Shown here piece after piece: positions 1 through 15,893 of a DNA stretch of 17,785 nt. The stretch's first letter is position 1. The number at the start of each line of letters is the position of its first letter. The notes under the pieces were generated by a model. The model was not told the DNA's origin. It did not search any database and saw nothing but the letters and a program-made list of their open reading frames with translations. This DNA is from Terfezia claveryi (lineage: Eukaryota > Ascomycota > Pezizomycetes > Pezizales > Pezizaceae), in contig WHUX01000594.1 in assembly GCA_015179025.1 (NCBI GenBank), positions 1 to 17,785 of the forward strand, written 5' to 3'. Made by a program: the position numbers and the translations under genes.

Positions 1-767
1 TGCAAACGCACATAAAGTGGCAATACCCCTGAGATCCGAGCTCACCATATGTCGGAAGCATCTTGAGTGGTAAGCATAGGTACTGCCTGTGGTAAGCGAG
101 TCTGAGGCATGCCGTGCTCTCGTGCAAGGTACTCACAGTTGCATATTGACAAGTTAAGCATCCGGTGAACAGGCCATATGTCAAGTTCAGGGTAATGAGC
201 TCACCAAGCCTCATTTTTCTCATACTCGAGGGGGGGCGGAACGTATATACAAGCGACCGCTGGCTTACCTTAATCCTGATTTCAGACTGTTCAAAAATGA
301 ACCTTTGAGATTGATTTTGATACTGTAGGGGTGTTTCCCATCGGCCTTATGATCCCCAAGCGCTCCTCACCGTGACGGCTTGATAGGGTTACCCTCAGTT
401 GTCCAGCCTGCCGCAAATTTCGGAGGTCCATAGGAGTTGAATTGAGAGCTATGACGAGACAAGAGGAAGAGCTTATCAGTGGGAAAGAGATCTAGCGACC
501 AGCAGAAGGGAAGCCACTCGATGTCAGCACGCAGCTCTATGTATGTATAGGCAGCTGCCTGCCGCAACTCACCGAACACCGTAGATGTACAAAGCCTAGC
601 TAGACACGAGAGCAAAAAAGCTAGTCATTTCTTCCAACCCGTGCTAGATACTAATCCTTGATCACGTCTCTGCCATCAACCTTTCAATTCAACAGTACTC
701 AGTTCCTCAAATAATTAGCTAATTAGCTACACAGATTGCAGGCCCTCCTCTAGATTCCATACGCCCC
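1..767. other. No firm gene; intergenic
   Basis: I see no convincing gene here. The stretch has ordinary composition with a short G run near 231-238 and AT-rich sequence (repeats of ctaattag) near 711-728. A minus-strand reading frame at 367-615 is listed separately as a weak candidate exon. Confidence 0.4.
367..592 (-). CDS. Possible exon of an unrecognised protein
   Basis: On the minus strand a frame stays open for about 75 codons and ends in TGA at 367-369. Its translation has a balanced, globular-looking composition, including the segments ELRADIEWLPFCW and SSQFNSYGPPKFAAGWTTEG. There is no good ATG. The frame begins just after a pyrimidine-rich stretch with CTAG that could be a splice acceptor, and a GTGAGG near its end could be a donor, so it may be an internal exon. 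I recognise no domain, and chance openness is a real alternative. Confidence 0.2.
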
Positions 768-1206
768 TATGCCCTATTGCCTATACCCTATCCCCCTCCC
801 CTATCTTCCCTATGCCTCATGTCCTATGCCCTAATTCCTTCTCTATTTCCTTCCCTATTTCCTTCCCTATGCCCTATTCCATTCGCTGTGTCCTATTTCC
901 CTTCCCTATGCCCTTTCCCTTCCTATGCCGCCCTGCCCCTATTCCGTCCCTTGTCCAATTTCCTTCCCTATGCCCTATTGCCTATACCCTATCCCCTCCC
1001 TATCTTCCCTATGCCTCATGTCCTATGCCCTAATTCCTTCTCTATTTCCTTCCCTATTTCCTTCCCTATGCCCTATTCCATTCGCTGTGTCCTATTTCCC
1101 TTCCCTATGCCCTTTCCCTTCCTATGCCGCCCTGCCCTATTCCCGTCCCTTTGTCCAATTTCCTTCCCTATGCCCTATTCCCTTCCTTATTCCTTTCCCT
1201 ATTCCC
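768..1206. repeat. Pyrimidine-rich tandem repeat, about 200-base unit, 2.2 copies
   Basis: Unit 1 (768-968, 201 bases) and unit 2 (969-1168, 200 bases) are nearly identical, differing by a few single-base C or T indels, and a third unit starts at 1169 and fades by 1206. Each unit is itself built of short words such as ttccctatgccc and ccttccctatttcc, so a short C/T-rich repeat has been amplified and then duplicated as a block. The plus strand is almost free of G. Several long reading frames through it (rich in Met, Pro, Ser, Phe, Tyr) are artefacts of this composition. A weaker stretch of the same type lies near 3370-3440. Confidence 0.9.
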
Positions 1207-1447
1207 GACGCCCGTCAAGATCGAGTTCCTCGGGAGAAGGATTTCGAGGGGAACAGCTTTAAGCAATATGAGCGGGGGGTTGCTCAGGGTGTGTAAACCT
1301 CATGAAAGTCTGTATGCCGGTTCTGAGTCTCGTTGAGCGAGAATCCATGGTTTAATAAGTGCGTTTAGCATCAGGAAAAGAAGCATCGTGCTATGAGCCT
1401 GATGGATCCAACTTTTCGGATCTGGAGATGAGGAGTGATCAATACAC
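1207..1447. other. Unrecognised sequence upstream of the first LINE insertion
   Basis: This non-repetitive segment lies between the pyrimidine repeat and the LINE insertion. It appears to continue at 2206 once the LINE is removed. Nothing in it codes convincingly: the reading frame from 1359 enters the LINE only by chance. Confidence 0.4.
1434..1447 (+). repeat. Target-site duplication, left copy (LINE at 1448)
   Basis: AGTGATCAATACAC (14 bases) occurs here and again at 2192-2205, exactly flanking the LINE fragment. This fixes both ends of the insertion. Confidence 0.95.
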
Positions 1448-1889
1448 AGACCGGACCGCAAACCTCCAGTCGCATTTGGGGGAATTCACAGGCCAAGAAC
1501 GGATAGTTACAGAAGGGGGTCTCCGGGCGTCCTCTAAAGCCGTGAGGAAGGAAGCGAGAACCAGAGCAGGACATGGTATGAGAAGGACGGAATGGAACCG
1601 CCAAGCCCTTTCAGCCTACACTTGGCTACTATCGAATAGAGGTCCTCAGAAAAGCTGGCTCCACCATATCGGTAAAGCAGACTCAGCAGTATGCGCATGC
1701 GGACATCCCACCGAGACAGGCGAGCATATCGTCTTCGAGTGCCCACGCTTCGACCATTACCGGAGAACACTATTGGGGGAAAAAAGCAACTGGGAGGATC
1801 TCGACAAACCGGAATGGAGAAAGGAGGGGGAGGAAATGTATGAGGCCACGGAGGCTTTTTTCGGGCTCTTATTCCGAGAGCTCACTTAG
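1448..1889 (+). pseudogene. LINE ORF2 C-terminus with zinc-knuckle motif (fragment)
   Basis: This is the C-terminal end of a LINE reverse transcriptase polyprotein; the endonuclease, reverse transcriptase and most or all of any RNase H domain are missing. A cysteine/histidine cluster of form C-x-C-x8-H-x4-C is visible in CACGHPTETGEHIVFECP, the type found after the RT/RNase H part of many LINE ORF2 proteins. It is followed by a conserved tail, WEDLDKPEWRKEGEEMYE then EATEAFFGLLFRELT, shared with the copies near 10000-10700. The apparent ATG at 1359 lies in host sequence before the insertion, so the first ~30 codons of that frame are not LINE. It cannot transpose by itself. Confidence 0.88.
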
Positions 1890-2129
1890 TACACAGCTTA
1901 ATTTTTGTTTATTACGAGTCCCCTTTGTCTACAGTTCTGATTTCAGTCACATATATTCATAGTTTCACAGCCGGTCCAGGAGGCGAGCTCAGTCAGGCTT
2001 TCGAGTCATCGGCTAAGTCCGTTAGTGACAGCACGGGGCAGCCTCTCTTTTTCCTTTTATTGTATCTAGTTTGCGCGGGTCTGGCAGATTAACTTGCCTT
2101 ACCCTTGAATCCACCGGGCTTCCGCGTGG

Positions 2130-2162
2130 CTCCTCATAGCCCCCTACGGGGCTGCATAGGAG
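2130..2162 (+). other. Conserved LINE 3'-terminal RNA hairpin (copy 1)
   Basis: CTCCT pairs with AGGAG and AGCCCC pairs with GGGGCT around a short loop. The hairpin sits 12 bases before the poly(A) tail. The same structure occurs in six LINE ends in this window with compensatory changes, so it is likely recognised by the element's reverse transcriptase. Confidence 0.8.
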
Positions 2163-2191
2163 TACTGAGTATTTAAAAAAAAAAAAAAAAA

Positions 2192-2205
2192 AGTGATCAA
2201 TACAC
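2192..2205 (+). repeat. Target-site duplication, right copy (LINE at 1448)
   Basis: Perfect second copy of AGTGATCAATACAC directly after the poly(A) tail. Confidence 0.95.
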
Positions 2206-2520
2206 GTTGGATTGATATTTATAGGTGACACTCGAGTGTAGGAGGTATCGAGTTTTATGATGTGAGGTGCCGTCAGCCCACATTATCGCGAAATGTCCAT
2301 CGACCGGACCCGCGTTTAGCCTGTGACTCCTCACTACTGTGTTAGGGTTGTTAAGCATGGCCTTCACGATGGACAGTGGTTACTGCAAAGTGAGTTGCCG
2401 AGCAGTGGTCAGGGCTGAGTGATATACCCCTGGGCCCGATAGTATGGATGCGGGCACCTGTCTCCAGGTAGCACTTTGTGTATGCGAACTGAGGTTGAGG
2501 GTACAAAGGGGAAGCCCGAC
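2206..2520. other. Unrecognised non-coding sequence
   Basis: No supported gene. GC content is balanced and the sequence is not repetitive. With the two LINE insertions removed, 1207-1447, 2206-2530 and 2611-3224 form one continuous sequence that I cannot identify. Confidence 0.4.
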
Positions 2521-2610
2521 TAACAGTTAACACCCGGGTCCTCATGACCCCCTGATGGGGCCGCATAGGAGTAACAAGTATTTAAAAAAATAAAATAAAA
2601 TAACAGTTAA
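2521..2610 (+). mobile_element. 70-base LINE tail insertion with 10-base TSD
   Basis: TAACAGTTAA at 2521-2530 is repeated at 2601-2610. Between them lie only the LINE 3' hairpin (about 2538-2571) and an A-rich tail (2581-2600, with interspersed T). It belongs to the subfamily with GGGGCCGCATAGGAG and AACAAGTATTTAAA, shared with 15743-15850, and differs from the 2130 and 10412 copies. It carries no coding sequence. Confidence 0.92.
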
Positions 2611-3224
2611 AGGGGTTACTCATTCTTTCTGAGATCCCCAGCCCGTACGGAGGAGTTCAAAAGCAAGCGAGGGTCGATACAGAGCCGGTAGTCTTAGAAG
2701 GGAAAAAGGCTGCCGGGCACGTACCTAGGTCTGGCGGGGGATGAGGTAAGTTAGAGGCCGAGAAGGACAGCATGGATAGGCAAAGGAATGCTACGGCCTA
2801 CCGGCTGGGATTCGTCAGGCCTTCAGGCTTCACCAAAACACACACGCGATATGGACCAACAGATCAATCAAGGGGTTGGCTTACATAGTTACGGATCGGG
2901 ATCCACAGAGAGCTGGACAAACATGATCGGGAGGGCGGAGGATCCCTATGCGGCAGCATCCAGAACGCACTGCTGGAAATGTGTGTGGATTGGGGATGGG
3001 AAGGGTACAGCTGCAGCTGCTAAGTATGTACTGCTGTATATAAGGTATGGTACAGCGTATGCTTAGGGAGATGAGAGAAGTGGTGCGAGAAGGTGTGGGA
3101 GACGCTGCATGACGGGAGGGGGGAGGCTGGCTAAGGGGAATAAAAGGCCTTTTCTTTACTTCTGTATGTAACGTAGACTTTCTCCTATGGAGGTGAGACC
3201 TTGGGGTTAGAGGATCTACCGGAC
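2611..3224. other. Unrecognised sequence; no reliable gene
   Basis: A 92-codon frame at 2788-3066 starts with ATG but has no recognisable motif and low-complexity alanine runs, so I do not call it a gene. The stretch may be an old decayed element. Confidence 0.35.
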
Positions 3225-3303
3225 TTGAGCCGGATTTTTTTTTTTTTTAATAATTATGACTCCTATGCGGCCCCATTAGGGGGGCCATGAGGAGTTGAGC
3301 CGG
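3225..3303 (-). mobile_element. 61-base LINE tail insertion, reverse orientation, 9-base TSD
   Basis: TTGAGCCGG at 3225-3233 is repeated at 3295-3303. The 61 bases between (3234-3294) are, on the minus strand, the LINE terminal hairpin (3260-3294), a short AT-rich spacer and a poly(A) tail (a T run on the plus strand, from 3235). The insertion is truncated exactly at the base of the hairpin, making it the shortest LINE copy in the window. Confidence 0.9.
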
Positions 3304-3529
3304 GGATGCAGTCTCTCGTCATAGGTTAAATCAATCTGAATACGAGTAATGATTTATTAAAAAAAATTTCCCTTTGACCTATTTTTTTCCACCTTCCCTT
3401 TGCTTTATTTCCTTCCCTTAGCCCAATTTCCTTCCCTTGGCTACGCCATTTTTTTTTTTGGGGGGAGCTAAACCATATTTCCAACACGCTATCCCCCACA
3501 CCCCCTATACCCTAATACCAAAGCATGAT
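3304..3529. other. AT- and pyrimidine-rich spacer
   Basis: Contains A runs (3359-3366), T runs and pyrimidine words (ttccttccctt) like those of the 768-1206 repeat. No gene seen. Confidence 0.5.
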
Positions 3530-4245
3530 TCATTCATCTTTCACGCTCTCCAACCACTTCCACACCTTTTCGCACGAAAGTCTGAGATGCGATGAAAGTT
3601 GCTCGAGCTCTTGCATATTCGGGATCACCTGTTTCCTTGCCAGATTCTGCACTCCTCCTTTCCAGTATCTCTCCTCATCTGACGCACCATCTTGCATATC
3701 ACGCTGTAGACGCTCAGCTGCCAACCTCTCTATCTCCGCTCTTCGTTGAACCTGCCGTTGAAAGAACGCACTTCTGCGGGTTTGGCGGGAGAAATGTTGG
3801 ATTGAATTTGCCTCCGTGGCTAGCATCCTGCGCCCCGGATGCTGGGGCATGCCACGTTGTTGAAGATTGTTTGCGTTACTAAGTGGTATGTTACTACTAC
3901 GAGGAAAATGATTGCCAAAATAGGCCCTGGGGAAGACAATGCTTACTGGGATGCCCTCTCAATGTGACCGAGTCGTGGATAGAATGGCAGTGGTGCCAGT
4001 TGTGTATGCCTCTGGGCATGGCGCGCATCAGGTCCCAAGTGGTCCCGACCTGTGAAAGGCACAGCCTTGTACTTTGGCTTGTGTACTGCTGGCATGCGTT
4101 GCGGTTGCAATGGGGCCAGAGCCTGGAGTGGGGGGTGCATCGGCGGGGGTGCTGGGGGTCGCACAGGGGGGAAGGTGGCCCCGGCGGAAGAGGAGTTTGG
4201 ATCGACTGCTGGTTGCGGGCTTGTGGCAGCTGCAGCCATATACAT
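3530..4245 (-). CDS. Hypothetical protein, Pro/Ala-rich N part and coiled-coil-like C part, in two frames
   Basis: I do not recognise this gene. On the minus strand the first segment (4245 down to about 3947) reads from ATG through a Pro/Ala-rich stretch (for example TFPPVRPPAPPPMHPP). The second (about 3926 down to a TGA at 3530-3532) reads a charged, helix-prone stretch (RQVQRRAEIERLAAERLQRD) and ends WKWLESVKDE. The two frames differ. They would be joined by removing 20 bases (3927-3946) that start GTAAGC and end CCCCAG, but 20 bases is far below the size of fungal introns, so a frameshift or pseudogene is as likely. The opposite-strand frame at 3883-4317 is a Trp/Cys/Gly-rich shadow. Confidence 0.45.
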
Positions 4246-5106: not shown

Positions 5107-5879
5107 GTCCTTCCGTTCGGGGGATAGGATGCATGCCCTGGCTGCAAGAGACAAGGCGAGATGGAGTTCCGATGGCACGAGACTAGTTCCGATAGACCCT
5201 CATCTACAAAGTATTACGCAAGTTATGTTAGCTGAGATGCGTAGACTTGGTTCAATCGAAGTTCCACCCCAGACTACTCTCAGCAATGGCTCAAACCTTT
5301 GGTACACGGTGCCATCACCTGACAGTCATAGTTCCTCTGACTGAAGTCTGTAGTGACTGCATAAAGTGTCGACATTCGTGTTAGGCCTTCGCAGTCCCCA
5401 CGCGGGAGGGGGGAGGACTCTTTTTGGCTGAAATGCATAACTTCCATGTCCTCCTGGATGAGCCAAACAGCAGCCAGAGCTCATTTATTTATTACTCTCT
5501 TATTAGAATTCTGAGATCATCAGGCAAGAGAAAGAGTCATGTGATTGGGAGTCCGCAGCAGAGAGCTCCGCCGATGTTGTCTCGGTATTGTTTCGATGAT
5601 GTTGTTTCGATGTCTGGGGTGGTGAAGGCCTAATGCCGTCGATCGTGTGGATACTTTTATACACCCACTGCCCTATTAGGCTTGGCATCCATCCGTGTCC
5701 CGTGCCCTCCTTCTAAGCCATCGATCGTATCATACACATAAGTCACGAGTGCAGGTAACTACAGCTGGTTCTCTTGAGCCTATCCACGATCCCCAATTCT
5801 GAGCTTACACGGTATCATTCCTCCTCATATCAAGTCCATCCTCGAGCACTACCTCATAATCTGCAACAGGCTTACTTTC
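5107..5879. other. Intergenic; no reliable gene
   Basis: Short frames (for example 5105-5344, and 5503-5688 on the minus strand) lack motifs or splice signals. The last part is presumably the promoter and leader of the gene starting at 5880/5916. Confidence 0.4.
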
Positions 5880-9196: not shown

Positions 9197-9243
9197 GGGT
9201 GTATTTAGTCTGGTTGCACTACCCCTTGCAGAGGGGGTGTATT
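9197..9243 (+). mobile_element. 29-base insertion starting TAGTCTGG, 9-base TSD
   Basis: The insert 9206-9234 starts TAGTCTGGTTGCACTACC and ends GCAGAGG. It is flanked by a perfect 9-base direct repeat, GGGTGTATT, at 9197-9205 and 9235-9243. A second copy of the same 29-base unit (26 of 29 identical) is at 13019-13047 with a different 9-base duplication. Confidence 0.85.
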
Positions 9244-9814
9244 AATACTTCCTGCCTGTGGGGCCGAAGCACGAATGCCCAGGCGCTAATGCAGTAATCG
9301 TATGGATTGTTTTGTGACTTGCTTGTTATTGGTTGGTCATTGAGTGGGACTTGGTTGGTCATTGGGTGGGGCGGGTGGGTCAGTGGATGGTCACAAGATT
9401 ATTCCTTTTTTTTTTCGCTAGTGGCGCTGATTAGCTTAAACACCTAAGGGTGGTGGAGACATCGAGCGTATTATATTTCATATGAGCGATTTTGTGATTG
9501 GCGCCATGCATGTCTGAAACGTTGCGCGAAACGTTAATGTTATTTAGGTTTGATGGCGGTGTCAACGTCAAAAGTTTAGTGGTAAAAACTTATGTGTTGT
9601 GTTCGTGGATAAGTATGATAGGTGTGGAATAGGAGAGTTTTCGTTACCCTGAGGTTGCTTCCAACCTTTTATTTTTCATGCGTCTAGTCTTTTTTTTTCT
9701 AGTTTTTTTTCTAATTGTGTATGATGAAACAAAGTGTACATTGCTTTTAGTAGTTAACTAGTATTATTATTGTTTATTTTTTTTGGAGGGGAGGTACTCG
9801 TAATTATACTATCT
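9244..9814. other. AT-rich non-coding stretch
   Basis: No gene seen. Contains an imperfect direct repeat of ggttggtcattgagtgggac (near 9332-9371) and several T runs between 9404 and 9782. Confidence 0.5.
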
Positions 9815-9819
9815 AGCAT

Positions 9820-10158
9820 ATGACGAGAGCGGGTATCCCAGGCGTCCAACCCCTGAGCCGTGCTAGCTCTAAATCATGTACATGCGGGCCGTTCCTCTCA
9901 ACCTACACATGGATGCAAACGAACAGAGGCCCACAAAGGAGCTGGCTACACCACATCGGCAAAGCGGAGTCACATCCCACTGAGACAGGAGAGCACATTG
10001 TCTTCAATTGCCCACGCTTCAATCGACACCGGAGAGATCTGCTGGGGGAAAAGAATAGTTGGGAGGACTTGGATAAGCCGGAATGGAGAAAGGAGGGGGA
10101 GGAAACATATGAGGCCACGGAGGCCTTTTTCGGGCTCTTATTCCGAGAGCTCACATAA
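9820..10158 (+). pseudogene. Chimeric LINE ORF2 relic (B joined to A)
   Basis: The 112-codon frame is not a natural gene. The first ~51 codons come from LINE copy B, the remainder from copy A, which happened to insert in the same frame at nearly the same point of the ORF. The join deletes the CxC half of the zinc-knuckle motif: the chimera runs HHIGKAESHPTETGEH where copy 1 has several more residues including CACG. The shared tail ends EATEAFFGLLFRELT with TAA at 10156-10158. Confidence 0.8.
9958..9973 (+). repeat. Target-site duplication, left copy (LINE copy A)
   Basis: GGCAAAGCGGAGTCAC, 16 bases, identical to 10486-10501. Confidence 0.95.
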
Positions 10159-10452
10159 TACACCCAATCATTACGAGTCCCCTTTGTTTTCAGTGCCTCA
10201 TTCCTTTAAGTTCAGCTAGTCTCCTTAGTTCTCAGTCTTCAGTTTCAGTTCACGGATATTTGAAGCGAGCCCAGTCAGGCTCTCGAGTCATCGGTCAGTC
10301 CGTTAATGACAGCATGGGGCTACGTTTCCTTTTTCTCGCTTTTGTATGTAGTCTGCGCGGGTCTGGCAGATTAACTTGCCTTACCCTTGAATCCACCGGG
10401 CTTCCGCGTGGCTCCTCATAGTCCCCCTTACGGGGCTGCATAGGAGTACTGA

Positions 10453-10485
<33 letters not shown>
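9974..10485 (+). mobile_element. LINE copy A, 512 bases, nested in copy B
   Basis: A 5'-truncated copy starting inside the zinc-knuckle codons. It ends with hairpin 10412-10446 and an uninterrupted run of about 28 A (10458-10485), followed at once by the 16-base duplication. The perfect duplication and pure tail make it the youngest-looking element in the window. It belongs to the same subfamily as 1448-2191 (GGGGCTGCATAGGAGTACTG before the tail). Confidence 0.93.
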
Positions 10486-10489
<4 letters not shown>

Positions 10490-10501
10490 AAGCGGAGTCA
10501 C
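10486..10501 (+). repeat. Target-site duplication, right copy (LINE copy A)
   Basis: Second copy of GGCAAAGCGGAGTCAC directly after the poly(A) run. It is also coding sequence of copy B. Confidence 0.95.
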
Positions 10502-10704
10502 CAGAGTGCGCATGCGGTCACCCCACCGAGACGGGGGAGCACGTTGTCTTCCAATGTCCACGCTTCAATCAAGCTCGCAACGTCCTTCTAGGGGATAGGA
10601 GGAGCTGGGAGGAGCTCGACAAACCGGAATGGAGAAAGGAGGGTGAGGAGACATACGAGGCCACGGAGGCCTTCTTCGGGTTGCTATTTCGAGAGTTCAC
10701 TTAG
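10502..10704 (+). pseudogene. LINE copy B ORF2 C-terminus (second half)
   Basis: This is the continuation of copy B's ORF after the nested insertion. With the last bases of the duplication it encodes CACGHPTETGEHVVFQCP, the intact C-x-C-x8-H-x4-C motif, and then the conserved tail to TAG at 10702. The differences from copies 1 and A (for example REFT instead of RELT) show that B is a separate lineage. Confidence 0.85.
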
Positions 10705-11053
10705 GAGGAGACATCGTTTTCTTTATTTTCAGTCCACAATTTCTATACAGCAGGTTACCACTTACGAGTCCCCTTTGTTTTCAAGTCCACAAGTTAGTCC
10801 TTTTAGTTCATCCTTTTCCGCGAGTCCTTCAGTGCTTTAGTTGGGGTGAGGCCCAGTCAGGCCTCCGGGTCATCGGCCAGTCCGTTCATGACAGCATGGG
10901 GCTTTACCTCTATCCGTGTACCTAGTTTGCGTAGGGGTTGGCAGATTAACTTGCCTCTCCCTTGAATCCACCGGATTTCCGTGTGGCTCCTCATAGCCCC
11001 CCTAACGGGGCTGCATAGGAGGATCAAAGTATTTAAAAAAAAACAAAAAAAAA

Positions 11054-11237
11054 CATAGCTGCATACATGGCTGCATACGTGCATTACTTAGATAGAAGCT
11101 TAGCTAGATACAATGTCGGGCTTCGCTCGAGGCTTGGCAGGGCCTATAAGGTCATATGCTGGCTAGATAGACTTAGGAAATACATGCTCCTTTCCCATCA
11201 CATCATCCTACAGGGGAGGACAAGTTGATGGGAGCTC
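11054..11237. other. Spacer, no gene seen
   Basis: A short direct repeat (gctgcatac) lies near 11060-11080. Nothing else is supported. Confidence 0.4.
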
Positions 11238-11583
11238 ATCGTTATCGAAGGATAGAGAGCACAATCAAAGAATGCTTTCCCACACATAACGGTGATTGCT
11301 CACATAAGGAAGGCATCAGCGACTTTTTTAACAATCACACAGTCGTTTCCAGAAGGTGGGTTTTTTTGATTTCTCAAGTATAGAGTGCGAGCTAATTAGT
11401 CGAGTCAGACATATCGTTATCGAAGGATAGAGAGCACAATCAAAGAAAGCTTTCCCACACATAACTGTGATTGCTCACATCAGGAAGGCATCAGCAACTT
11501 TTTGACAATTACACAGTCGTTTCCAAACGGTGAGTTTTTCTGATTTCTCATGTATAGAGTACGAGCTAATTAGTCGAGTCAGA
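11238..11583 (+). repeat. Tandem duplication, 175-base unit, 2 copies
   Basis: Unit 1 (11238-11412) and unit 2 (11413-11583) are about 90% or more identical. Both start atcgttatcgaaggatagag and end near gagctaattagtcgagtcag. No reading frame is shared, so it is probably non-coding. Confidence 0.9.
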
Positions 11584-11735
11584 AAGATGGTGCTCAAATT
11601 ACTATTTCAAGCTGGACGAGGTGTTTTTCCGAATTTCACCGTGGAGGTCGTGGAGGCTTTCAGAACCTGACGAGGCATGATTTAACTACGACAGCGGCAT
11701 ACCAAAGGACGAAACAGGTTACTTCATATTCGAAG

Positions 11736-12398
11736 ATGTCTATTCGACAGGCAGAGAAGAGATTAGGTTTTCGACTGCAATCCATTAAGGCGGTACCTGT
11801 TGATAAGTTTCTGGTAAAGCAAAGCTGTAAAGAGATGGATGCAATCAAGGAGAAGGTTTATGACCGGTTAGTTGAATATCTTGACATCGAAGGATATCCG
11901 ACGGAAGCGAGTGCGGATTTCAAGGAAGCCAAAGTTAGCGACTTGGTTTACAGTACGCTCGGTCCAATACTGGCAAGGTTTAAGCACAATACAGGACGGG
12001 ACATACTTTTGGAGAGGGAGAAAGATATCATCTCGGTGGACGGTGAGACGAGGAATCTGTGGTAATGGACCTGATTTCAGTGATGGAGGAAAAGTTTGTG
12101 TTGATTGTCGAGGCAAAGAGAGCATCTACCGGTCAGGCAATGAAGCAGTGTGTTTTGTCATTGAAGGATGCATGGGATAACAATGAAGGAGGTGAAGTGT
12201 ACGGGTTTGTTACATCAGGGAATCAATGGCGGATGTTTAAATTCGATGGTAAGTCTTTTGTCGCAACGGAGGAGTTTATGGTCTTGTTTGAGTCTATGAA
12301 GGAGGACAAAAAGAGATGGACGAAAAACATTTTCAGTTGTGGTGGATTGTGTATATTTTGCGTTGAATTGAGGAATCATCAAGGACAAGGTTGTTTAA
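11736..12398 (+). pseudogene. PD-(D/E)XK-nuclease-like protein, frameshifted
   Basis: The first segment (11736-12065) is frame 0 and contains MSIRQAEKRLGFRL and SADFKEAKVSDLVYSTLG. The second (about 12059-12330) is frame 2 and contains MDLISVMEEKFVLIVEAKR and EVYGFVTSGNQWRMFKFDG. The third returns to frame 0 (SVVVDCVYFALN), has TGA at 12369 where Trp would fit, and ends at TAA 12396. Asp at 12068-12070 followed by Glu-x-Lys (12110-12118, EAK) on adjacent hydrophobic strands is the arrangement of a PD-(D/E)XK core. I associate this type with hypothetical proteins of truffles, from memory only. Two compensating frameshifts plus a stop indicate a pseudogene. Frame 0 is also open upstream of 11736 to about 11573, with a Gly/Arg stretch, so the original start was earlier. 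Confidence 0.7.
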
Positions 12399-12615
12399 GG
12401 ATAGGTGATTGTAGTTTAGGTAGTGTAGGATGAGGATGTACTGCTCTCGTCTTCGTTATCCTCTTAGAACTGTAGGCACTCGAGTCCCAAAGGAGTTCTT
12501 TCCTGTGAAGTCTCTGCTCAATGAAAAATTCAATCTCTATGATCTCAAGTCTGATGTAAAGTCGCTTATCCCCCATTTCCTAGTCCGACGGGGTAAAACA
12601 ACCCCTGTTTTTGCG
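12399..12615. other. No reliable gene
   Basis: An 89-codon frame (12430-12699) runs through this stretch and into the repeat at 12616, so it is probably not a gene. Confidence 0.4.
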
Positions 12616-12648
12616 CTAGTCAACGTGCCAACCAGACTACTAGTCAAC
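12616..12648 (-). mobile_element. 15-base insertion of the TAGTCTGG family, 9-base TSD
   Basis: CTAGTCAAC at 12616-12624 is repeated at 12640-12648. Between them is GTGCCAACCAGACTA (12625-12639), whose reverse complement is TAGTCTGGTTGGCAC. The fixed TAG end lies directly against the duplication. Confidence 0.8.
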
Positions 12649-12744
12649 CGTGGTACCGCCAACCACATGTATCATGCGGTAGGGAGACTACCAAGATAGG
12701 ACTAGCTTAATCACAAAAAGGGTAGACTGGGAGATACCGGAAAA

Positions 12745-12772
12745 GGTATGGGCTAGTCTGGTTGGTATGGGC
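12745..12772 (+). mobile_element. 10-base insertion TAGTCTGGTT, 9-base TSD
   Basis: GGTATGGGC at 12745-12753 is repeated at 12764-12772, enclosing only TAGTCTGGTT. The duplication begins GG, the same bases that would follow in the 15-base copy, so the variable end may have joined by microhomology. Confidence 0.75.
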
Positions 12773-12859
12773 CAGAAAAGGACTATCTCAAAAAGGCAAC
12801 CATCCAATGATACCGAAAGAAGTAGTCAAAAATTCTGAATACCCATTGCGTGCTGCGGC

Positions 12860-12957
12860 GGTCTCCCATAGTCTGGCGGGCACCTAGTCTGGCTAGCACT
12901 AGCCTCTCGTAGACTAGTGCTAGCCAGACTAGCGGGGCACCCCTCGTAGGTCTCCCA
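12860..12957 (+). mobile_element. 80-base insertion starting TAGTCTGG, 9-base TSD
   Basis: GGTCTCCCA at 12860-12868 is repeated at 12949-12957. The insert (12869-12948) begins TAGTCTGGCGGGCACC, contains the perfect inverted repeat 12884-12932, and ends GGCACCCCTCGTA. It has no coding capacity and is the longest member seen here. Confidence 0.85.
12884..12932. repeat. Perfect inverted repeat, 19-base arms
   Basis: CTAGTCTGGCTAGCACTAG (12884-12902) and its exact reverse complement (12914-12932) are separated by 11 bases. As DNA it could form a cruciform and as RNA a strong hairpin. Both arms carry the TAGTCTGG word of the insertion family. Confidence 0.95.
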
Positions 12958-13009
12958 CCGCAGTAAATTGGCACTAAACCTGCTAGCGTAGTCATGATCT
13001 AGTGCCGAC

Positions 13010-13056
13010 AGTTAATTGTAGTCTGGTTGCACTACCTTTCGCAGAGGAGTTAATTG
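13010..13056 (+). mobile_element. Second 29-base insertion starting TAGTCTGG, 9-base TSD
   Basis: AGTTAATTG at 13010-13018 is repeated at 13048-13056. The insert (13019-13047) starts TAGTCTGGTTGCACTACC and ends GCAGAGG, matching the 9206-9234 insert in length and at all but three positions. The two target duplications are unrelated. Confidence 0.87.
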
Positions 13057-13057
13057 G

Positions 13058-13113
13058 TAGTCTGGTTGCTAAACCTGGTAGCGTAGTCGCTACCTCTTAT
13101 AATCTAGTGCGGC
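13058..13113 (+). repeat. TAGTCTGGTTG copy without clear TSD
   Basis: Starts TAGTCTGGTTGCTAAACC one base after the preceding TSD. It includes the small inverted repeat GGTAGCG/CGCTACC and resembles 12970-13007 (both contain ctaaacctg, tagcgtagtc and tctagtgc). I found no matching 9-base flank. Confidence 0.5.
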
Positions 13114-13331
13114 TCATATGTTCCAGACCTACTAGAGTAGTGACTGCCACCTTCAGTCCCATAACTCCAAGTGCGCTAAACCTAAGTTCTATACCACTAA
13201 GCCCATCAGGTTATTAATTTATGTTAACATTCTACCAATAATGCTGCATCCCCGCGTAACATTCTTAGCTGTGCCAGTATGTGCTACAGAATAATGCGAT
13301 TACTAGGATTAGTCGGATATTACTCCATACT

Positions 13332-13359
13332 GGTAGCCCGTAGTCTGGTTGGTAGCCCG
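13332..13359 (+). mobile_element. 10-base insertion TAGTCTGGTT, 9-base TSD
   Basis: GGTAGCCCG at 13332-13340 is repeated at 13351-13359, enclosing TAGTCTGGTT (13341-13350). The arrangement is identical to 12745-12772 but at an unrelated target. Confidence 0.75.
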
Positions 13360-13527
13360 CATAAGTGTAACCCACTAAAGGCTCAGAGCCAATTGCTAGC
13401 GTGCAACCTTGCCAAAAATAATAACGTATGCATGCATCAGGTACATATTCGTGATTTTTGTTGACGTCGCAGCTAAACTGCAGTCAGTTAGACGATAAGT
13501 AGGCTAGGCTGCTGCACAACCCATGCT

Positions 13528-13682
13528 CGTCACGTAGCCTCGTAATAACCAATCTGTTGTCTCTGGGGGGTCTGAACCAGATCGGGTAAGTTGGTAGTGT
13601 TGTCACATGTCCTTTCAGTTTGCGACGTCACGAATGCTACAAATAATAATGTATTAACCTGGTTCTACGAGGCTACGTCACG
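13528..13682. mobile_element. MITE-like element, ends TAGCCTCGTA, 141 bases
   Basis: TAGCCTCGTA (13535) and TACGAGGCTA (ending 13675) form terminal inverted repeats. CGTCACG at 13528-13534 is repeated at 13676-13682 and may be a target duplication of 7 bases (or GTCAC, 5 bases, if the ends include one more pair). It is non-coding. The right half (cacgaatgctac, tattaacctgg) is shared with 14181-14261. Confidence 0.65.
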
Positions 13683-14180
13683 CCATATGTTCGTGCTGAT
13701 TATTGTTGGTGTCACAGCTCATATGCACTATGCCATAGAAGGAAAATCTATCCGTATCATTACCACTGACCACAAGGGGCAGTGGCTACTGCAGTAGGCT
13801 TAGCTTGTTATCTGCACTAGATCAGAAGAGGTAGTGACTACGGTAATATGTTTCGCGCCATTGCCGCCTGTTAACTAAACCTGCCAGTCTCGGTGCCCTC
13901 CAGCTCCTTTATTTGTTGACGCTCTGCACTGCGATCCATCTTCTCCACCCTGTTCCTAGCAGTGTGTCAACTGGTCTTCCTGTCGAACATCCCGCGAAAT
14001 TAGCTAAAAAGTGATCGAACTTCTTTAGCTCCACCTTCATCGTTGGTACTTCTCCTGTTTTTCCATCCACAGGACCGCTTTTCCGTTTATCATCTCAATT
14101 TCCTCCTCCAATTTATCTTCCTCCTCTCTTAGCTGGCGTGAATTTCTAGAATTAAAACCAAAAGTCTTGGCAGACAACAC
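13683..14180. other. No gene seen
   Basis: Mixed, gene-poor sequence with short frames only (for example 13591-13797, which overlaps the MITE-like element). Confidence 0.4.
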
Positions 14181-14261
14181 TAGCCTCGTAGTAACTCTGG
14201 GGGTCACAAATCACGAATGCTACCACGAACACTACAATATATTAACCTGGGTACGAGGCTA
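14181..14261. mobile_element. Deleted second copy of the TAGCCTCGTA element
   Basis: TAGCCTCGTA at 14181-14190 and TACGAGGCTA at 14252-14261 enclose 61 bases related to the right half of the 13535 element. The copy appears internally deleted. No target duplication is visible. Confidence 0.55.
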
Positions 14262-14292
14262 GAGTTACCGTGCAACCAGACTAAGAGTTATC
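14261..14292 (-). mobile_element. 14-base insertion of the TAGTCTGG family, imperfect 9-base TSD
   Basis: AGAGTTACC (14261-14269) and AGAGTTATC (14284-14292) match at 8 of 9 bases and enclose GTGCAACCAGACTA, the reverse complement of TAGTCTGGTTGCAC. The mismatch suggests an older insertion. Confidence 0.6.
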
Positions 14293-15352: not shown

Positions 15353-15727
15353 GGTAACTCTAATTATGCCAAGGCACCAGGGGCATAGTCGCATACCACT
15401 ACATAACCTGGCTAGTGGCGTCCTTGGCATCCGTAATCTTTCACAGCAAACGTTAGAACTTCTACGAGCCTCATGGTGCGGTAACCCCTTCTTGGCCTTG
15501 TCCTGCTTCTGCCACCACAACCTCCACCAAAACCCTCCTCCACTACACCCTCCTTCACCCTCCTTCACCATACCCTGCTCGCCTACACTTTCTCAGACAC
15601 ATTTTCTTTTTAAGTTCTCAGTTTGTCTCCTTACTCTCAAAGAGGAACACAAACGGACAGCAAGCACGCTCGGAGACGTGAACAGCCAAATAGCCGCAAG
15701 TGTAGCGATTCGATCAAAGCAACCAGT
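15353..15727. other. No reliable gene; pyrimidine-rich part
   Basis: A 155-codon frame (15366-15833) runs into the LINE tail and is therefore unlikely to be a gene. The sequence around 15515-15600 is C/T-rich. Confidence 0.4.
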
Positions 15728-15865
15728 AAGTGCCAAACCTAGCAGATTAACTTGCCTTGTCCTGAAGCCACCTGGGTTTCCGGGTGGCTCTTCATGGCCC
15801 CCTTGGGGCCGCATAAGAGTAACAAGTATTTAAAAAATACAAATGAAAAAAAGTGCCAAACCTAG
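15728..15865 (+). mobile_element. 108-base LINE tail insertion with 15-base TSD
   Basis: AAGTGCCAAACCTAG at 15728-15742 is repeated at 15851-15865. The insert (15743-15850) holds the end of the LINE 3' UTR (from CAGATTAACTTGCC), hairpin 15788-15819 and a degenerate A-rich tail. The hairpin stem has CTCTT/AAGAG and GGCCCC/GGGGCC where other copies have CTCCT/AGGAG and AGCCCC/GGGGCT. The insertion lies about 100 bases before the start codon of the next gene and landed in a pre-existing TAGTCTGGTTGG site (15863). Confidence 0.92.
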
Positions 15866-15873
15866 TCTGGTTG
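15863..15873 (+). repeat. TAGTCTGGTTG copy without clear TSD
   Basis: Lies in GTGCCAA...TTGGCAC, a small inverted repeat (15853-15877). The flanks share only AAACC, so any target duplication has decayed or the copy arose another way. Confidence 0.5.
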
Positions 15874-15893
15874 GCACAAACCTAGCCTCTAAC

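Follow-up and report, generated by a model that had tools for sequence, protein, structure and literature searches.

What process leaves insertions of a few to a few dozen bases in a genome, each between two copies of a 9-base target sequence? The question is raised by contig C550 (WHUX01000594.1) of Terfezia claveryi, which was analysed over its whole length of 17,785 nt and is called the window in the following; the genome comprises 72.6 Mb in 794 contigs. In the window the 8-base motif TAGTCTGG occurs 12 times, compared to 0.57 occurrences expected from shuffles. The original prediction had described seven small inserts here that begin with this motif. All seven exist at the places given, with lengths of 29, 15, 10, 80, 29, 10 and 14 bp, six of them between perfect 9-base direct repeats and the one ending at 14283 with eight of nine bases alike. 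There are thousands of such TAGTCTGG ends in the genome, and about half of those sampled are insertions of approximately 6–54 bp between 9-bp direct repeats. With a probability of roughly 0.45, we propose that these micro-insertions are remnants of hairpin micro-transposons, inserted and cut out by a predicted DDE-type transposase, and that the copies with a single end are excision scars. The proposal starts from features seen directly: the duplication is constant at 9 bp, several paralogous repeats have clean empty sites, and there are two-ended forms of 23–54 bp, which one-ended forms far outnumber.

Abundance and target site duplications

The sequence TAGTCTGGTTG was found 5,960 times in the genome (2,935 on the plus and 3,025 on the minus strand), whereas the reversed pattern, used as control, occurs 57 times (32 and 25). 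For TAGTCTGGTTGGCAC there are 2,885 and for TAGTCTGGTTGGCACAA 1,616 occurrences, against a control of 0 in both cases.

Flanking duplications were scored at 164 TAGTCTGG sites from four sources: 40 from tiles, which are 200 kb of contig C1 picked independently of the motif; the 12 of the window; 85 from stretches around C1 positions listed in the genome-wide TAGTCTGGTTG search (C1 places); and 27 from twelve stretches picked from matches to TAGTCTGGTTG-N(0-30)-CAACCAGACTA (two-ended list). Sites less than 20 bases from the left or less than 45 from the right border of a stretch were excluded. As control, the left flanks were shuffled among the sites 200 times. An exact 9-mer repeat is present at 63 of the 164 sites (shuffled mean 1.5, largest value 5), and a repeat with at most one mismatch at 84 (mean 4.5, largest 11). 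About half of the sites are therefore without a duplication. The genome-wide excess of 9-base flanking repeats that had been foreseen is thus borne out in this sample. Exact and one-mismatch counts are 12 and 17 of 40 in the tiles, 6 and 7 of 12 in the window, 28 and 42 of 85 at the C1 places, and 17 and 18 of 27 in the two-ended list. Detection needs an intact 9-mer, so that copies with a damaged duplication stay hidden, and several of the sites without one resemble the other insertions except that their duplication has decayed. Since the C1 list was chosen by TAGTCTGGTTG, inserts of 10 bp or less are under-counted in it.

The length of this target site duplication (TSD) is nearly constant. 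At its longest, the repeat next to the TAG end spans 9 bases at 46 sites, 8 at 7, 10 at 10, 11 at 5, 12 at 2 and 6–7 at 17 sites, and 77 sites have none of 6 or more. When exact 9-mer pairs were scanned without an anchor in tiles and window, TAGT came out narrowly as the top insert terminus (19 of 614, with CTCA at 18 and GATG at 17); at least some of the CTCA and GATG pairs come from tandem repeats. A second family of ends also exists, as TAGTCTCGATC has 741 copies versus 41 in the control. Because TAGTCTCGATCA is found as an insert of 12 bp between exact 9-mers at two unrelated positions (C1:86057 within C1:86048–86077 of the tiles, and L147), the system is wider than TAGTCTGG. The 23-mer TAGTCTGGTTGGCACAASMCCCT had no match in viral or prokaryotic collections; eukaryotic collections were not searched.

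Empty sites in paralogous repeats

The original prediction had called for empty sites in related strains. Here they were sought in paralogous repeats within this genome, several of which yielded clean empty sites that differ from the filled ones by exactly the insert plus one 9-mer. Three of five paralog queries gave this result (window 12754, C1:152134 and C1:65902). The 10-bp insert at 12754 is missing from C1:5612–5781 and C1:177392–177558, each with one GGTATGGGC only. The copy at 129288 lacks the 15-bp insert of C1:152134, and that at 65225 lacks the 34-bp insert of C1:65902. The query with C1:152612 returned one near match (128765), the other copies being gapped at the border, and that with L089 gave no clear empty-site picture.

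Furthermore, 15 copies of a dispersed repeat (window 12675–12995) were aligned and the borders read by eye. Six insertions with exact 9-mers stand against empty copies: two in the window copy, one of 8 bp in L145, one of 12 bp each in L147 and L132, and one of 11 bp in L148. A seventh, decayed insertion is found in L146. L145 and L147 carry different inserts at the same CAAAAAGGC. The repeat itself is about 250 bp long, exists in dozens of copies (52 matches from 40 scored of 197 candidates) and is a frequent target of micro-insertions. Chance, or an artefact of tandem repeats, is refuted as an explanation by the abundance of the motif, the statistics of the duplications and the clean empty sites taken together.

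Two-ended forms

A search for TAGTCTGGTTG-N(0-30)-CAACCAGACTA found 131 stretches of 22–52 bp, and one for TAGTCTGGTTG-N(31-61)-CAACCAGACTA another 83, with a control of 0 for either. With each locus scored by its best pair, an exact 9-bp TSD is seen at 17 of the 32 two-ended loci fetched outside C1; one has a TSD with one mismatch and 14 have none (two of these 14 are copies of one duplicated locus). The supposed lack of two inverted ends thus does not apply to the family, although it does apply to most of the members sampled, as 60 of 64 insertions from tiles, window and C1 list have no second full end. Three further two-ended copies from C1 (L036, L051, L071) bring those with an exact TSD to 20. 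Their sizes are 23 (L097, L106 and L114), 25 (twice), 30, 31, 31, 32, 35, 37, 40, 41, 44, 46, 47, 48, 50, 50 and 54 bp.

Many two-ended forms are near-perfect palindromes; one 50-mer, folded as RNA, forms a hairpin with a stem of 23 bp and a loop of 4 bases (-44 kcal/mol). Arm types were compared in 84 hand-copied sequences, made up of 49 of the 50 listed with a gap of 0–30 (one duplicated locus entering a single time) plus 35 of the 50 with a gap of 31–61, some of the 15 omitted holding further copies inside. Where both arms are long, their sequence types agree in 13 of 20 pairs, compared to 4.6 after shuffling. This is what elements, and not random pairings, would be expected to give, and a combinatorial pairing of unlike arms was rejected on this ground. 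Some of the mixed-arm cases we read, from their sequence, as probable neighbouring one-ended inserts (L073, L129).

One-ended forms

Tiles, window and C1 list together yield 64 insertions when up to one mismatch is allowed, and these fall into distinct size classes: 30 are of 15 bp or less, a single one is of 16–24 bp, 28 are of 25–38 bp, one is the 80-bp composite of the window and four are two-ended. That one end is fixed while the other varies is correct with regard to the TAG end; the other end does not vary freely, as lengths cluster at up to 15 and at 25–38 bp. In the full set (n = 75) the commonest length is 15 bp with 11 cases, of which 10 are TAGTCTGGTTGGCAC. At seven exact 15-bp junctions the microhomology amounts to 0, 0, 0, 0, 0, 1 and 2 bases. 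This is no excess, hence the boundary at 15 bases is not set by pairing. In the shortest inserts, of 6 and 7 bp (L089, L059), the overlap with the target amounts to 5 and 4 bases, and the one in L145 is TAGTCTGG alone (8 bp); all three have exact 9-bp duplications.

Many inserts of 25–38 bases stop a few bases past the tip of a hairpin. Among 29 one-ended inserts of 20–40 bp, 12 have a fold-back score of at least 3, and the mean of 2.29 compares with 1.37 for shuffled tails (largest 1.95 of 300).

One fixed and one variable end would also result if a short RNA were copied by target-primed reverse transcription and truncated at the 5' end, in the manner of short or long interspersed nuclear elements (SINEs, LINEs). 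We hold this to be highly improbable. The duplication is fixed at 9 bases (46 sites, compared to 7 at 8 and 10 at 10), poly(A) or other simple tails are missing, two-ended forms are palindromic, lengths are bimodal, and at the gathering threshold Rfam detects nothing but a transfer RNA gene in the window. The earlier interpretation stands in so far as the family is mobile and non-autonomous, has one fixed end, duplicates a constant 9 bases of target, is without poly(A) and is distinct from LINE truncation; it has to be amended in that two ends exist.

Origin of the one-ended copies

The excision scars proposed here would result from a staggered cut, one strand being cleaved exactly at the border of element and target and its partner some 15 bases farther in, within the element. 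If the overhang were ligated directly to the flank opposite, both copies of the 9-mer would remain together with up to 15 bases of one end, as in the class of 15 bp or less with its peak at TAGTCTGGTTGGCAC. If the two overhangs were joined, the product would have two ends and measure up to about 30 bases, for instance the forms of 23, 25 and 30 bp. For the class of 25–38 bp a more speculative step is needed: after a cut at only one end, what is left of the palindrome would fold onto itself and be opened a few bases beyond the tip. Such a geometry would account for three oddities together: the intact 9-mers, the missing second end in most copies and the ceiling at 15 bases.

Several points weigh against these scars. 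Two-ended forms are rare (4 of 64), so each surviving element would need to have left many scars. No site was caught in both states, with the full element in one copy and a scar in another. Four of the 29 long one-ended inserts are without any fold-back, and about six inserts counted as one-ended close in 2–8 bases that resemble a second end: TA (L070, C1:92658, L105), GACTA (L049, L062) and CCAGGCTA (L034). Because copies in which the duplication was cut into are undetectable, the exactness of the borders in part reflects the way in which they were sought. No transposase with TAGTCTGG ends was found among the loci fetched, which were 5 of 21 Mutator-like element (MULE) matches and 2 of at least 150 hAT matches, and none of the 9 KDZ matches was read. 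TSDs of the P group lie in the range of 5–8 bp and not at 9. The same range is given for KDZ and hAT in an excerpt of PMC12730594, and excision of the MULE Muta1 is about 90% precise when TSDs are present, according to part of PMC5225508. Finally, the 20 two-ended copies with an exact TSD run from 23 to 54 bp with no break at 30, and a T is found at TSD position 3 in 24 of 45 one-ended versus 7 of 40 two-ended copies (both strands; Fisher 0.0007, calculated post hoc for one of many positions).

As there is no break at 30, the ceiling predicted for joined overhangs is invisible, which weakens the scar model and raises a rival, namely deletion after insertion. Full palindromes of about 50 bp would have been shortened during replication, by slippage or by processing of cruciforms, until one arm was left. 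Palindromes are prone to deletion, and the full forms come close to perfect ones, as the energy of the folded 50-mer illustrates; the continuous sizes of the two-ended forms fit as well. Yet deletion should often leave a partial second arm, whereas 45 of 55 insertions with an exact duplication are without a full second arm and have both 9-mers whole. The seven 15-bp junctions without microhomology speak against it likewise. Deletions that cut into the duplication would have escaped detection, which bears on this explanation too. All in all, we consider it clearly doubtful.

The bias at TSD position 3 (absent in the one-mismatch copies, with 4 of 19) would, if real, favour a separate process of one-ended insertion, and it is not predicted by scars alone. 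As in tagmentation, the transposase would attach short ends of 8–34 bp, already cleaved or trimmed, to a target cut with a 9-bp stagger; end joining would then seal the break, and most copies would never have been two-ended. This agrees with the 60 of 64 insertions that have no second full end, with the exact duplications around inserts of 8 bp (L145) and 6–7 bp (L089, L059), and with the different bias in one- and two-ended copies. It also agrees with the outcome of a search for longer two-ended members: none with TAGTC ends and an exact TSD, between 20 bp and 12 kb, was found in tiles, window and five loci. Taken alone, direct insertion leaves unexplained that the trace of a second end is missing in most copies with both 9-mers whole, and that the short class has a sharp ceiling at 15 bases; the long arms of two-ended forms, assorted by type in 13 of 20 pairs, are not randomly paired either. 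We regard direct insertion as somewhat unlikely. Natural tagmentation, in which a transposase would carry end fragments of 8–34 bp, cut with a 9-bp stagger and leave it to host end joining to produce thousands of one-ended tags whose second end was never present, is unlikely.

Search for a transposase

The genome contains 21 matches to MULE, at least 150 to hAT and 9 to KDZ transposases; together with the LINE-like copies and the transfer RNA gene of the window they suit a eukaryote, probably a fungus. Termini were read at three of the five MULE loci fetched; the ends of L029 were not reached and no terminal inverted repeat (TIR) was found in L152. At L030, L031 and L153 the termini do not begin with TAGTCTGG but with CGGACTGACTC, CGGGATGCTTCC and GAGAAAACC, so that MULEs were rejected as the partner as far as their ends could be read. 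Two of these copies have 9-bp duplications, TTGTTGAGG at L031 and AAGCCTAAG at L153. The latter (C62:79000–82800, positions 710–3574) is a MULE of 2,865 bp with TIRs of 70 bp. In L029 (C773:254000–260000) and L030 (C60:84000–89500) the MULE matches are flanked by inverted repeats of more than 1.6 kb and more than 0.76 kb, with internal repeats. Copies of TAGTCTGG lie inside these long inverted repeats on both sides, and none is at a terminus that was read.

Two near-identical hAT copies were fetched and have no flanking TAGTCTGG pair; their ends were not determined. The P-type domain PF21787 has no match in the genome, nor in any of the control genomes. Also Merlin/IS1595 (PF12762) has none, its control being positive in one genome. 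A loose scan for TAG alone gave two pairs (1,394 and 11,698 bp, with 12 of 20 end bases alike), which do not resemble TAGTCTGG.

Insertions and repeats of the window

The features of the window are compiled in Table 1. Five of the twelve TAGTCTGG copies (5269–5276, minus; 12885, plus; 12924–12931, minus; 13058, plus; 15863, plus) have no 9-base repeat at up to one mismatch. Those at 12885 and 12931 are the two ends of a 47-bp element within the 80-bp insert. This insert had been regarded as a single member, and its length and TSD are as described; it is, however, a composite of two nested insertions. Judging from the letters, we read it as a probable one-ended unit of 23 bp (TAGTCTGGCGGGCACC plus CCTCGTA) split by the two-ended element, whose flanks, GCGGGCACC and GCGGGGCACC, are alike except for one extra G. 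The end at 13058 is suggested to be an older copy or a longer, rearranged one, and the motif at 5269–5276 may be a chance occurrence.

Table 1. TAGTCTGG ends and micro-insertions in the window
Feature	Position	Strand	Remarks
Isolated TAGTCTGG	5269–5276	-	no TTG continuation, no duplication
TSD GGGTGTATT (9197–9205, 9235–9243)	9197–9243	+	29-bp one-ended insert 9206–9234, runs through hairpin loop
TSD CTAGTCAAC (12616–12624, 12640–12648)	12616–12648	-	15-bp insert TAGTCTGGTTGGCAC (12625–12639), commonest short form
TSD GGTATGGGC	12745–12772	+	10-bp insert TAGTCTGGTT (12754–12763); paralogs with single GGTATGGGC and no insert
TSD GGTCTCCCA	12860–12957	+	80-bp composite insert, absent from aligned paralogs
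Two-ended near-palindromic element, 47 bp	12885–12931	.	inside 80-bp insert; inverted repeat I10
TSD AGTTAATTG	13010–13056	+	29-bp one-ended insert 13019–13047, resembles insert at 9206
TAGTCTGG end	13058–13065	+	no recognisable duplication nearby
TSD GGTAGCCCG	13332–13359	+	10-bp insert TAGTCTGGTT (13341–13350)
TSD, 8 of 9 (AGAGTTACC / AGAGTTATC)	14261–14292	-	14-bp insert TAGTCTGGTTGCAC (14270–14283)
TAGTCTGG end	15863–15870	+	no 9-base duplication

Directly upstream of the end at 15863, a probable LINE 3' end with an A-rich tail was read by eye (15720–15876). A TAGTCTGG copy seems to have been its target, as AGTGCCAAACCTAG, the border of the TAGTCTGG element itself, is repeated on both sides. 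Three similar LINE-like 3' ends with A-rich tails are found at 1703–2196, 9972–10478 and 10518–11053. An open reading frame of the first shows a weak match to zf-RVT, below the cut-off.

The window is 99.7–100% identical to C445:841100–851900 over five stretches which cover all 12 sites, and it is redundant or allelic with part of that contig. Since the inserts are common to both, this comparison gives no empty or altered allele.

Implications

If the one-ended copies are scars, the genome would hold an archive of cleavage and repair events. It would comprise close to 6,000 ends that match over 11 bases or more and would reveal both the geometry of the transposase's cut and its end-joining preferences. 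If they are direct insertions, a eukaryotic transposase would be able to install one short end alone. Insertions of 8–15 bp with a TSD are smaller than repeat finders normally report and could pass for random indels. Each of them adds 17–24 bp and could therefore bring codons, stops or binding sites.

Comparison with known systems

No comparable system was described among the papers listed in literature searches, as judged by titles and the openings of abstracts, and the letters of the motif led to unrelated subjects only, among the matches listed. The closest likeness is offered in part by the P element of Drosophila, whose TSD is 8 bp and whose scars consist of both TSD copies plus part of one end. 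Its transposase leaves a 3' single-stranded extension of 17 nt of element sequence, as stated in part of PMC10983969. A two-ended element of DDE type and a staggered cut inside the end would be common to both systems, with 17 bases there and a putative 15 here. The TSD here is 9 bp, the elements are of about 50 bp, and one-ended copies would number thousands if the sample is typical.

The TSD of 9 bp, shared with MULEs and their miniature inverted-repeat transposable elements (MITEs), lies within the 8–10 bp used as a criterion for MULEs, whereas the ends are unlike the three MULE termini read. Excerpts describe MULE TIRs as typically 100–500 bp (PMC3310237) and report that with Muta1 constructs lacking donor TSDs up to 13 bp of TIR are occasionally left (PMC5225508). 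As readable MULE ends differ, membership in this group fails (16 of the 21 matches being unread). The 8-bp TSD of hAT is not matched (7 sites at 8 versus 46 at 9), although hAT itself is abundant in this genome. Having a TSD of 9 instead of 8 bp, the micro-insertions were filed neither as P elements nor as hAT; and not as Merlin/IS1595 either, for which the genome has no PF12762 transposase match.

LINEs and SINEs have variable TSDs and an A-rich or simple 3' tail, neither of which is seen in the micro-insertions. According to part of PMC3408717, the internal eliminated sequences of Paramecium include very short remnants of DNA transposons, some of them solo TIRs, which are excised by a domesticated transposase. 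Their TA target, their programmed somatic excision and their lack of a 9-bp duplication set them apart from the insertions described here. MITEs and foldback elements are alike in being non-autonomous and palindromic, with inverted ends and a constant TSD; here, two-ended copies with an exact TSD measure 23–54 bp and are outnumbered by one-ended copies of 6–38 bp. By analogy, the micro-insertions may work like a TIR transposon with scars of the P-element type. What is unusual in comparison with the known kinds is their size of 6–54 bp, their copy number and the predominance of one-ended copies.

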